Part shown: in pieces, positions 25,025-28,500 of the stretch
Position numbering within the stretch: position 1 is the stretch's first letter
Layout: every line of letters starts with the position of its first letter
DNA from: Ilumatobacteraceae bacterium
GTDB taxonomy: Bacteria > Actinomycetota > Acidimicrobiia > Acidimicrobiales > Ilumatobacteraceae
Assembly (NCBI GenBank): GCA_033344875.1
Contig: JAWPMO010000001.1
Location: 1,513,595-1,577,594, forward strand
DNA length: 64,000 bases
Direction of reading: 5' to 3'
Notes under the pieces: generated by a model
Told to the model about the DNA's origin: nothing
Databases searched by the model: none
Seen by the model: only the letters and a program-made list of their open reading frames with translations
Program-made: the position numbers and the translations under genes

Positions 25025-25837
25025 GTGGCCCTGATCAGCGAGACCGACGTGGAGACGTTCGAACGCGACGGCGCCGCCGTGCTCCGGGGCGCGCTCTCGC
25101 CCGACTTCATCGAACAGCTCGCGGCCGGCGTCGAGTACAACCGCACCCATCCCAGCGAGTGGTCGCACCGGTACACCAATCCCGACGAGTCGGTGGGGTT
25201 CTGGACCGACTACGTGACCTGGCCGAACGTGCCCGAGTACCGAGCGGTCGTGTTCGAGAGCGGACTGGCACGTGTGGCCGCCCGGTTGATGCGATCCGAC
25301 ACGGTGCGGTTCTTCCACGAACACGTCCTCGTCAAGGAACCGGGCGCGTCCGAGCGGACGCCGTGGCACCACGACCAGCCGTACTACTCGGTCGACGGCG
25401 ACCAGAACGTCAGCATGTGGATCGGGCTCGACCCCGTCCCCCACGATCGGGCCGTGCGCTTCCTGGCGGGTTCGCATCGCTGGAACCGGTGGTTCATCCC
25501 TCGCAAGTTCATCGACCACACCCCGTACGCGCCCGAGAGCGACCGCTACGAACTGCTCCCCGACATCGACCGGATGATCGCCGACGAGCCCGACACCTAC
25601 CGGACGGTCTCGTTCGACACCGAGCCCGGCGACGTCGTCGTGTTCCACTACCGCACGTTGCACGATGCGCCGGGCAACGCGTCGACGGCACGACGCCGCC
25701 GTGCGGTCAGCCTGCGGTGGGTCGGTGACGACGCCCGGTGGGCCGAGCGCCCGTGGCAGGTCTCACCGCCCTACGAGGCCGACGGGCTGTCGGTCGGTGA
25801 CGAACTCGACGACGCCCGATTTCCGCTCGTCGTCTGA
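25025..25837 (+). CDS. Phytanoyl-CoA dioxygenase (PhyH) family protein
   Basis: A 270-residue Fe(II)/2-oxoglutarate dioxygenase fold. The iron-binding HxD lies in PWHHDQPYY near residue 118, the distal His in RTLHDAPGN near 213 and the 2-oxoglutarate-binding Arg in RRAVSLRW. Substrate class is unknown; relatives hydroxylate small organic acids, acyl-CoA or secondary metabolites. The start is GTG. It lies 58 bases before the thioredoxin-like fusion gene on the same strand and may be co-transcribed with it and the UGSC selenoprotein. Confidence 0.9.
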   Translation: MALISETDVETFERDGAAVLRGALSPDFIEQLAAGVEYNRTHPSEWSHRYTNPDESVGFWTDYVTWPNVPEYRAVVFESGLARVAARLMRSDTVRFFHEHVLVKEPGASERTPWHHDQPYYSVDGDQNVSMWIGLDPVPHDRAVRFLAGSHRWNRWFIPRKFIDHTPYAPESDRYELLPDIDRMIADEPDTYRTVSFDTEPGDVVVFHYRTLHDAPGNASTARRRRAVSLRWVGDDARWAERPWQVSPPYEADGLSVGDELDDARFPLVV

Positions 25838-25895: not shown

Positions 25896-27365
25896 ATGAG
25901 CAAGCCGGTGCTGCCCGATGGTCTCGTCGTCGTCGTCAAGCGCGACTGCGAGACCTGCCAGACCGTCGTGCCGGTGCTGCAACAGCTCGCCGGGCTGACC
26001 CAGCTCACCGTCTACTCGCAGGACGACCCCGACTTCCCCGGCGACCCGGCGGCGATCCACGACGAGGACCTGGCGGTCAGTTGGCACCACGAGATCGAGA
26101 CCGTGCCGACGTTGATCCGGGTCGACGGCGGCGCCGAGGTCGACCGCACGTTCGGGTGGCTGCGAACCGCCTGGGAGGAGTTCACCGGGTTCGACGGACT
26201 CGGTCAGGGTCTCCCGCCGATGCGACCGGGGTGCGGGTCGAAGAGCGTCGACCCCGACCTCGTCGACGAGCTCGCCGTCCGGCACGGCGGCAGCATCCTG
26301 CGCTCGCGTCGGATCGAGGTCGCGGAGGCCGAGGACGACATCGAGATGATGTTCACCCGCGGATGGAGCGACGGGCTCCCCGTGGTGCCGCCGACCGAGG
26401 AGCGCGTGATCAAGATGCTCGGGGGCACGACACGTCCGCCCGACGAGGTCGTCGCGAACGTGCCGCCCGACCTGATCGACGCGACGGTCGAGAAGGTCGC
26501 GATCGCTGCCGTGATGGCCGGCTGCCTCCCCGAGTACCTGCCATGGGTCATCACCGCGGTCGAAGCCGTGTGCAACGACGAGTTCAACATGCACGGGCTG
26601 CTCGCGACCACGATGCCGGTCGGCCCGGTGCTGGTCTGCAGCGGGCCGGGCACCCGCAAGATCGGCATGAACTCGGGCATCAACGCCCTCGGTCAGGGCA
26701 ACCGCGCGAACTCCACGATCGGGAGGGCACTCCAACTCGTCGTCCGCAACATCGGCGGTGGACGCCCCGGTGAGGTCGACCGTGCCGCCCACGGCAACCC
26801 GGGCAAGATCGGCTTCTGTTTCGCCGAGGCCGATCACGAGTCCCCGTACGGCACGCTCGCGGCCCAGCGCGGGCTCGACGGCGACGTCGACGCGATCACG
26901 GTGTTCGCCGGGGAAGGGCCGCGCGGCATCGTCGACCAGATCTCGCGCACACCCGAGAGCCTCGCCAACACCCTCGCCCACCAGTTGCAGGCGATGCACC
27001 ATCACAAGCTCGTGATGGCGTTCGACGCGATCCTGGTCATGGGCCCCGAGCACGCCAGGGTGTTCGCCGATGCGGGCTGGGATCGCGACCGCATCGTCTT
27101 CGAACTGCACGTGCGGCTCACTCAACCCTTCGACGAACTGGTGCGCGGGGCCGGCGGCATCGAGGAGGGCATTCCGGCCCAGGCGGCCGCCGGTTTCCTC
27201 GCGCCCGACACGTCGGCCGGGCCGACCTCGCTCCCGAAGTTCCGACCCGACGGACTCATGCTCGCCTACGCCGGGGGCGGTGCCGGCCTGTTCTCGTCGA
27301 TCATCCCCGGATGGGTCAACGGCGAGACCGGCTCGAAGCCCGTCACCCGAGCAGTGCAATACTGA
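25896..27365 (+). CDS. Thioredoxin-like domain fused to a large partner-type domain, upstream of the UGSC selenoprotein
   Basis: A 489-residue protein. Residues 1-95 have a thioredoxin-like pattern with a redox CxxC (KRDCETCQT, Cys near 16 and 19) and a cis-Pro-like IETVPTLIRV. A short link PGCGSKSVDP carries another cysteine. The remaining 370 residues start with RGWSDGLPVVPPTEERV and contain CSGPGTRKIGMNSGINALG and MAFDAILVMGPEH. I recall this large domain as occurring next to UGSC-type selenoproteins, which is exactly the arrangement here, but no reaction is established. Start ATG 25896 (alternative ATG 25875). It lies 29 bases before the selenoprotein gene. Confidence 0.75.
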   Translation: MSKPVLPDGLVVVVKRDCETCQTVVPVLQQLAGLTQLTVYSQDDPDFPGDPAAIHDEDLAVSWHHEIETVPTLIRVDGGAEVDRTFGWLRTAWEEFTGFDGLGQGLPPMRPGCGSKSVDPDLVDELAVRHGGSILRSRRIEVAEAEDDIEMMFTRGWSDGLPVVPPTEERVIKMLGGTTRPPDEVVANVPPDLIDATVEKVAIAAVMAGCLPEYLPWVITAVEAVCNDEFNMHGLLATTMPVGPVLVCSGPGTRKIGMNSGINALGQGNRANSTIGRALQLVVRNIGGGRPGEVDRAAHGNPGKIGFCFAEADHESPYGTLAAQRGLDGDVDAITVFAGEGPRGIVDQISRTPESLANTLAHQLQAMHHHKLVMAFDAILVMGPEHARVFADAGWDRDRIVFELHVRLTQPFDELVRGAGGIEEGIPAQAAAGFLAPDTSAGPTSLPKFRPDGLMLAYAGGGAGLFSSIIPGWVNGETGSKPVTRAVQY

Positions 27366-27394: not shown

Positions 27395-27919
27395 ATGAGC
27401 ACCCGCACCATCCTCGACCCCACCGGCGAACAGTCCGTCGCCGAGCGGGCGCGACTCGCCCGGCCGGCATCGCTCGACGGGCTCACGGTCGGACTGCTCG
27501 ACATCTCCAAACCGCGCGGCAACGTGTTCCTCGACCGGATCGAGCAGCGGTTGGTCGGGATCGGAGCCAGCGTCAAGCGCTACAAGAAGCCGACCTTCGC
27601 CAAGCCGGCGCCGGTCGATCTCCGCCACGAGATCGCCACCGAGTGCCAGGTCGTGATCGAGGCACTCGCCGATTGAGGCAGTTGCACGTCGTGCAGTGTG
27701 CACGACATCAGTGATCTCGAACTCCGCGGTCTGCCCGGGGTGTTCGTCGCCTCCGACCAGTTCGTCACCGCAGCCGAGTCCCAGTCCAAGTCGCTCGGCT
27801 ACTCGGCGATGGCGCGGGTGTTCACACCCCACCCGATCCAAGACCGGACCGACGACGAGATGATCGCCTACGCCGACGCCGCGTTCGACCAGATCGTGAG
27901 TCAGATCACGGCCGGTTGA
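27395..27919 (+). CDS. UGSC family selenoprotein (in-frame TGA at codon 94)
   Basis: Two same-frame open segments are joined through a TGA at 27674-27676, giving a 174-residue protein with selenocysteine at 94. The context is ALAD-U-GSCTSCSV, the defining UGSC motif. Upstream lies VGLLDISKPRGNVFLDRIEQ and downstream LRGLPGVFVASDQF, a continuous Rossmann-like fold that makes sense only if the TGA is read through. A perfect hairpin starts 11 bases after the TGA. ATG 27395 has an AGGA seven bases upstream. Likely a redox enzyme partnered with the upstream thioredoxin-like protein. The Sec machinery (selABCD) is not in this window. Confidence 0.88.
27688..27706 (+). promoter_or_regulatory. Candidate bacterial SECIS hairpin
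   Basis: GTCGTGCA (27688-27695) pairs perfectly with TGCACGAC (27699-27706). The loop is GUG (or AGUGU if the last pair opens). The apical loop lies about 20 bases downstream of the in-frame TGA, within the coding sequence. That is where bacterial SECIS elements sit for SelB recruitment, and a GU in the loop fits the usual pattern. A competing 5-bp hairpin TGCAC-GTC-GTGCA overlaps it. Confidence 0.75.
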
Positions 27920-27975
27920 CGGCGGTGTGTGCGGACCTCGTACACGCTCGGGTCGGTCGTCGGATCATCGCCGTC

Positions 27976-28500
27976 GTGAACGAGCGTGTCGTGCTGCACG
28001 GTGAGCAGGTAGCACTTCGAACGACGACGCACGACGACCGGGGTGCGCTCGTCGCGATCAGGTCGACCGACGAGGTGTATCGGCGGTGGCGGGGCGACGA
28101 CCTCGAGGCCGAGTTCGATGCCGATCTCACGGACGGCGACGTCCACCGTTTCACGATCGTCGCGTCGAACGGCCGGATCATCGGCCTGATCCAGTACACC
28201 GAGGAGACCGACCCGGAGTACCGCCACGCGTCGATCGACATCTACATCGACCCGGCCGTCCATCGTCGAGGCCATGCGACCGACGCCGTCCGCACACTGG
28301 TCGACCACCTCTTCGATGAACGAGGACATCACCGGCTGACCATCGACCCTGCGGCCGACAATCGAGCGGCGATCGGCTGCTACTCGAAGGTCGGTTTCCG
28401 TCCGGTCGGCATCCTGCGCTCGTACGAGCTGCGAAGCGACGGAACGTGGGCTGACGGGCTCCTGATGGACATGCTGGCGAGCGACCGCAGCTCGCGGTGA
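27976..28500 (+). CDS. GNAT acetyltransferase, aminoglycoside AAC(6')-like
   Basis: A 174-residue GNAT-fold protein. The acetyl-CoA loop is in HRRGHATDAVRTLVDHLF (near 105-122), strand 4 is ASIDIYIDP and the C-terminal NRAAIGCYSKVGF is the hallmark block. The IIGLIQYTEETDPEYRH segment closely resembles aminoglycoside 6'-N-acetyltransferases, although general protein or metabolite acetylation is possible. GTG 27976 is preferred over a longer TTG/GTG extension because homology starts there. It follows the selenoprotein gene by 56 bases and converges with mutY. Confidence 0.82.
   Translation: MNERVVLHGEQVALRTTTHDDRGALVAIRSTDEVYRRWRGDDLEAEFDADLTDGDVHRFTIVASNGRIIGLIQYTEETDPEYRHASIDIYIDPAVHRRGHATDAVRTLVDHLFDERGHHRLTIDPAADNRAAIGCYSKVGFRPVGILRSYELRSDGTWADGLLMDMLASDRSSR

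Follow-up and report, generated by a model that had tools for sequence, protein, structure and literature searches.

A UGSC-family selenoprotein gene of an Ilumatobacteraceae bacterium and its conserved partner, a probable two-component reductase

The UGSC family of selenoproteins was described in 2008 by Zhang and Gladyshev, who suggested a thioredoxin-like fold for it and reported its fusion to a domain called 'Unknown_1' (PMC2398784). In their survey the family was more abundant in nonmarine samples, and the preliminary description of the locus presented here, which had placed UGSC mainly in marine metagenomes, has to be corrected on this point (PMC2398784). According to a 2026 review, the functions of such selenoprotein families are largely uncharacterised (PMC13188914). 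The same review sets out a model of the bacterial SECIS element, in which a stem of 4-16 bp carries a loop of 3-9 nt with a G in the first two positions, at a distance of 16-37 nt; some genes deviate from this model (PMC13188914). A UxxC motif also characterises selenoprotein B of glycine reductase and PrdB (PF07355).

How does a further UGSC locus compare with these systems? The window is a stretch of 64,000 nucleotides from an Ilumatobacteraceae bacterium, whose genome is a single contig of 4.97 Mb and is 99.65% complete. The following features of the window are discussed:

25896..27365, + strand: partner gene (ATG at 25896, 489 aa), with an N-terminal thioredoxin domain carrying CETC and a domain without a Pfam or NCBIfam match (fold, profile)
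27395..27919, + strand: UGSC-family selenoprotein gene of 174 aa, with Sec94 in U-G-S-C-T-S-C (frame, profiles, relatives)
27674..27676, + strand: in-frame TGA, predicted to be read as selenocysteine (relatives and Sec machinery in the genome)
27688..27706, + strand: putative SECIS hairpin of the bacterial type, in which 27688-27695 pairs with 27699-27706 around a GUG loop at 27696-27698 (codon freezing, co-variation)

The UGSC gene runs from an ATG at 27395 to a terminal TGA at 27917-27919, and its sole interruption is the TGA at 27674-27676, across which the two segments join in one frame as ALAD-U-GSCTSCSV, exactly as first claimed. The joined protein of 174 residues scores 163 bits (E 4.6e-48) against NF041046, 'UGSC family (seleno)protein', and 155.5 bits against PF24696, 'UGSC', the curated cut-offs being 125 and 25, respectively. 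Taken separately, the halves reach 60.1 and 81.7 bits with NF041046, and the fact that only the joined frame exceeds the cut-off bears out the family identity proposed in the preliminary description. The halves cover profile positions 1-68 and 70-146, with one position missing between them, and the TGA therefore corresponds to the Sec/Cys column of the profile. With PF24696 they score 66.5 and 68.3 bits; since each alone exceeds the low cut-off of 25, both are UGSC sequence. The downstream half had been said to lack a good start of its own, and its earliest possible start is indeed a GTG at codon 102, within the motif region, the earliest ATG being codon 139. The Sec or Cys followed by GSC that marks the family is present as TGA-GSC, and U/C-x-x-C is invariant across a 32-row alignment. 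Judged by its sequence, the gene is almost certainly a genuine UGSC selenoprotein, and it provides a clean case of a gene split in two by plain table-11 translation.

Does the UGSC protein have a partner? The gene upstream of UGSC, which has an alternative earlier in-frame ATG at 25665, is matched by neither Pfam nor NCBIfam at E 0.001. Among the best 80 of 391 relatives of the UGSC protein, a relative of this partner lies beside UGSC in 76 of 80 loci; in 75 of the 76 it ends upstream of the matched UGSC stretch by 106 bp or less, and in L038 it is 1138 bp off. Two of the four loci without a partner have less than 400 bp of upstream contig, while L077 (5000 bp) and L082 (2214 bp) have ample flank.

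Of 396 genomes sampled from the phylum, 29 contain a UGSC match at E 0.001 and 27 contain one above the cut-off. The sample yields 46 match rows, 36 with one TGA and 10 without. Thirty-eight loci were read, that is, all rows minus the window's own, two sub-cut-off matches and five others; the two sub-cut-off matches (L129 and L130, from G271 and G196) look by eye like flavoproteins and were removed from the partner count. In 36 of these 38 other phylum loci the partner shares the strand of UGSC and is no more than 372 bp away, as counted between matched stretches, and five of the 36 are in-frame fusions. L128 is one fused UGSC-partner frame, and the partner is therefore adjoining or fused in 37 of 38; in L142, no partner was found in the 3.3 kb covered. 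UGSC and partner occupy one frame at six loci (L127, L128, L134, L135, L136, and L138), and the order of the two genes varies between lineages. By their record titles, many UGSC-bearing bacteria come from lakes and sea water.

The pair is also found a second time in the genome of the window:

G000:C1:1393570-1394043: second UGSC gene, with an in-frame TGA (L144; profile match)
G000:C1:1394172-1395143: partner homologue of the second UGSC gene (L144), without a thioredoxin domain (similarity)

The second partner begins 128 bp past the second UGSC gene, is 39% identical to the first and is the only other partner match in the genome at E 0.001. The pairing persists through duplication, reordering and fusion, and therefore argues for one functional unit. 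It is likely but unproved that the partner of the window is the 'Unknown_1' of Zhang and Gladyshev (PMC2398784).

Other genes of the neighbourhood do not share this pattern. When ORFs of the window and 62 loci, 63 sources in all, were clustered, no recognisable neighbour apart from the partner was equally constant; this is a weak test because many clusters are antisense ORFs in GC-rich DNA. As linked neighbours, a PhyH-family gene (25025-25837) and a GNAT gene (27916-28500) were rejected, with relatives in 4 and 0 of the 80 loci, some of which have short flanks. The GNAT gene is similar to aminoglycoside 6'-N-acetyltransferases, although its 161 bits fall short of the model cut-off of 250, and a TTG start would make it overlap the UGSC stop upstream of it. 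An ORF that looks by eye like selB lies upstream in 8 of the 63 clustered sources, and six of the 60 loci scanned (L052, L057, L068, L075, L083, and L093) have tRNA-Sec at most 5 kb from UGSC.

What do the predicted structures suggest? In the model of the window's partner (pLDDT 85.1), residues 1-99 fold as a thioredoxin domain (Z 9.5, 2.5 A, 85 aligned), which carries the CETC motif and is confirmed by profile (best E 4.4e-6). Thioredoxins matching these residues filled the fold search, and the remaining 390 residues were hardly probed; no weight is given to two cyclic-amide-hydrolase ('Toblerone') chains that match over about 280 columns at a probability of 0.25-0.30. The C-terminal domain of about 340 residues (window 26340-27365) belongs to no Pfam family, and a scan of 31 members gave no hits beyond two weak thioredoxin-type models, in one member each. 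Five of its residues, D159, G160, C210, K304, and E311 in the protein numbering of the partner, are invariant in 31 rows. The thioredoxin region is aligned in 17 of 31 partner sequences, three of the 17 having CPTS instead of CxxC. In the other 14 the matched stretch begins past this region and the open frame holds no CxxC upstream, two of these open frames running off the locus. Because no such region was detected in 14 of the 31 sequences, the thioredoxin domain cannot be needed everywhere, and its distribution among the sequences marks it as an add-on.

The fold of the UGSC part was taken from an AlphaFold2 model of the natural fusion L135 (569 residues, 30-row alignment; pLDDT 80.3, pTM 0.69). 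This part of the model has five strands alternating with helices, with strand 97-101 before the Sec position (105 in L135) and helix 106-121 after it. Its best alignments in the PDB are with 8ju8, which is a designed protein (Z 11.8, 3.7 A, 131 residues), and with chain H of 8s7v, a methyl-coenzyme M reductase activation complex (Z 11.6, 2.6 A, 125 residues). Many Rossmann, flavodoxin-like, receiver and other alpha/beta chains are among the matches listed; thioredoxin folds are not among them (50 per list), which does not amount to an exclusion. The model fits a UGSC domain that is Rossmann/flavodoxin-like rather than thioredoxin-like.

Could the UGSC selenoprotein act alone, as a general thioredoxin-like thiol oxidoreductase or peroxidase, with the partner merely co-transcribed? 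The UxxC motif is what such an enzyme would carry, and the few loci without a nearby partner (L142, L077, and L082) point the same way. However, the predicted fold, with its alternating strands and helices, matches Rossmann/flavodoxin-like chains, and the partner has been kept adjacent in either gene order and joined to UGSC in six single-frame fusions. Stand-alone action is therefore considered unlikely, and joint action of UGSC and partner is preferred.

Can the organism insert selenocysteine at the TGA? The preliminary description had proposed looking for selA, selB, selC, and selD, whose absence from the complete genome would have counted against it; all four are present, each above its curated cut-off. 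At 3.84 Mb of the genome, selA (396.1 bits, cut-off 267.9) is adjacent to selB, which scores 275.9 bits against a cut-off of 242.25 and is matched over positions 2-343 of the 581 in the profile, in an open frame of 659. The tRNA-Sec (selC) scores 66.6 bits, with a gathering score of 47, and has the anticodon TCA by ARAGORN. The fourth gene, selD (367.2 bits, cut-off 125), has one in-frame TGA of its own:

G000:C1:4687734-4688651, - strand: selD (L100), TGA-interrupted, GAG-U-GCK (profile match)

A strongly folding stretch lies 3' of this TGA. The same genome contains a GRDB-like gene (L099, G000:C1:3379323 onward) with an in-frame TGA in LTPV-U-PLC, which is likely to be another selenoprotein cut short by plain translation.

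Does tRNA-Sec accompany the TGA-containing copies in other genomes? Because every genome searched (48 of 48, E 0.001) gives weak tRNA-like matches, tRNA-Sec was counted at 58 bits or more, a line drawn post hoc after the scores had been seen. At this line it is present in all 23 genomes of the phylum sample with a TGA copy (the window's own and 22 others) and in 4 of the 20 family-free genomes searched, the other 347 family-free genomes having been left out (Fisher p 1.8e-8, which is nominal because the genomes are related). At the family's own 47 bits the counts are 23 of 23 and 6 of 20. Six genomes have stop-free UGSC matches only: tRNA-Sec reaches at least 58 bits in G294, G196, and G271, and stays below this in G102, G150, and G136 (49.9 in the last). 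G271 and G196 were kept in this tally, within the 'other' group.

The relatives are informative about the codon itself. In the best 80 of 391 relatives confirmed in one genome scan, a set picked for closeness, the homologous codon is TGA with an open frame beyond it in 80 of 80, two of which run off the contig end before the final stop. Homologues ending at the same TGA had been named as evidence that would weigh against selenocysteine, and none of these 80 does so, the C-terminal half being in frame throughout. Together with the selABCD genes, this supports the earlier claim that the organism decodes UGA as selenocysteine. The comparison with Cys homologues proposed at the same time finds a Cys codon at the Sec site in four more distant relatives (L103, L119, L122, and L123), out of 10 stop-free rows in the phylum sample. 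Two further rows are fragments short of the Sec column (G156:C68 and G123:C127), two are the sub-cut-off matches, which belong to other proteins, and G102:C23 was left out of this reading. The stop-free fused protein L128 has Met at the aligned Sec site.

This UGSC-partner fusion (L128:1477-3195) also lacks the motif cysteine, and its genome has no tRNA-Sec of at least 58 bits. Because of the Met and the missing cysteine, some of the relatives may have no redox function. Relatives of the UGSC protein in phages were not found in the phage collection searched (E 1e-5).

The hairpin that follows the UGA falls within the published bacterial model in all three respects, with a stem of 8 bp, a GUG loop and a distance of 19 nt from the UGA (PMC13188914). 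In 81 sequences, the window and the best 80 of 391 relatives, the codons ACG98, TGC100, AGT101, GTG102, and GAC104 are invariant (81 of 81), and mean normalised codon entropy is 0.23 for the 11 columns under the hairpin but 0.72 for the 81 other conserved ones (Mann-Whitney p 7.8e-6). Base pairing was counted in 27 more diverse sequences of the 34 with TGA, leaving out the close relatives L109, L111, L112, L114, L117, L118, and L124. In these 27, 85.2% of stem pair cells are paired, compared with 75.1% when shuffled and at most 50.0% when slid, and 15 two-sided stem changes are observed compared with 4.9 in shuffles. The most frequent compensatory change, found in 8 of the 27, is a swap of C-G to G-C; in seven of the eight, by eye, residue 100 is TGG (Trp) for TGC (Cys) and is matched by C as the third base of codon 102.

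Other measures of the hairpin are less distinctive. Against synonymous-codon randomisation, its fold energy is not exceptional for the window (p 0.23) and reaches p <=0.05 for 7 of the 34 genes with TGA and one of the four with Cys; the argument for a SECIS element therefore rests on codon freezing and co-variation. In 64 of 500 shuffles the number of further pair types is as high as that observed, which makes it unexceptional, and the 6 pairs altered on both sides do not stand out from slid structures, where up to 7 occur. Several deeply diverged members (e.g., L127, L140, and L142) do not fold into a stem in the register of the window.

Sec insertion is often incomplete, and this lends some substance to the idea that the UGA is read through as near-cognate Trp or Cys, or that it mostly terminates translation to give a short regulatory protein. 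Such a reading is nevertheless very improbable: the hairpin lies within the published limits for bacterial SECIS elements (PMC13188914), tRNA-Sec is present in 23 of 23 TGA-bearing genomes, and stop-free relatives have Cys at the site in four cases. A pseudogene or sequencing error, in which the TGA would be a true stop in a broken gene, would account for the in-frame stop and can practically be dismissed, because a same-codon TGA with open frames on both sides in 80 of the best 80 of 391 relatives speaks strongly against it, as do the nearly frozen synonymous codons downstream and the complete set of Sec genes.

How might the two proteins work together? The preferred reading is that of a UGSC selenoprotein, with Sec predicted at residue 94, which probably acts in a two-component reductase with its partner. 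SelB and Sec-tRNA(UCA), guided by the hairpin directly 3' of the UGA, would insert the selenocysteine. The UGSC protein would then probably be the catalytic subunit: Sec94, placed behind a beta strand where a helix begins, would attack a substrate held by the conserved C-terminal domain of the partner, and Cys97 would resolve the selenium as an Se-S bond. Re-reduction would be carried out by the CxxC thioredoxin domain of the partner or, where this domain is missing, by a separate thioredoxin. The computation itself establishes the recoded frame, the Sec machinery, the hairpin, the pairing of the genes with its natural fusions, the invariant U/C-x-x-C and the thioredoxin domain. We infer the insertion of Sec and the class of substrate along with the redox cycle and this division of labour, and the chemistry is possibly related to that of glycine/proline reductase.

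Is there a link to glycine reductase? The UGSC profile was compared with an alignment of 19 GRDB-type proteins of the phylum, extended through their own TGA. The two align over 60 columns, with their Sec motifs in register (hhalign probability 71%; E 3.8e-5, for one comparison). The score is 42.0, while 60 column shuffles reach 16.7 at most and reversed profiles give 16.4 and 22.3. Each of two subsets of that alignment also matches UGSC by itself, more weakly (34.4 and 29.0). PF07355 was not found on the UGSC protein, a Pfam scan at E 10 giving PF24696 and RHD3_GTPase only, and because the Pfam GRDB family gives no match the protein is not filed under GRDB. The partner shows no relation to a GrdB-type profile. 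In the parts consulted of the literature that treats both, no statement of a relation between UGSC and glycine reductase was found, which is no proof of absence. On the sequences compared, the link between UGSC and GrdB appears weak, and the Sec motif of UGSC may descend from the glycine-reductase line.

A broader reading can be put forward only tentatively, and is rather doubtful. UGSC and partner would form a widespread two-component Sec-dependent reductase of environmental bacteria, whose catalytic Sec domain would share its ancestry with glycine/proline reductase; the large domain of the partner would hold the substrate, and the attached thioredoxin domain would recycle the selenium in part of the family. 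The specific, sometimes fused partner and the possible glycine-reductase descent lead to a testable hypothesis of a two-subunit enzyme.

Set beside the thioredoxin domain, residues 1-99 of the partner are alike in fold, profile and CETC motif; here, however, the domain is located in the partner and not in the selenoprotein, and 14 of the 31 partner rows show no such domain. In comparison with GrdB and PrdB, the UGSC profile is in register at U/C-G-[ST] and then at E-x-x-G-[IL]-P, whereas the similarity is confined to about 60 columns, with no PF07355 match. The predicted fold is Rossmann-like, in contrast to the thioredoxin-like fold suggested in the 2008 paper (PMC2398784). With the UGSC family as represented by NF041046 and PF24696, the window gene shares scores above the curated cut-offs, the U-G-S-C motif and a SECIS-type hairpin 3' of the UGA, and no feature sets it apart from the family as described in 2008 (PMC2398784). 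It is an ordinary member of an already known selenoprotein family, to which the partner and the possible link to the glycine-reductase line add interest.
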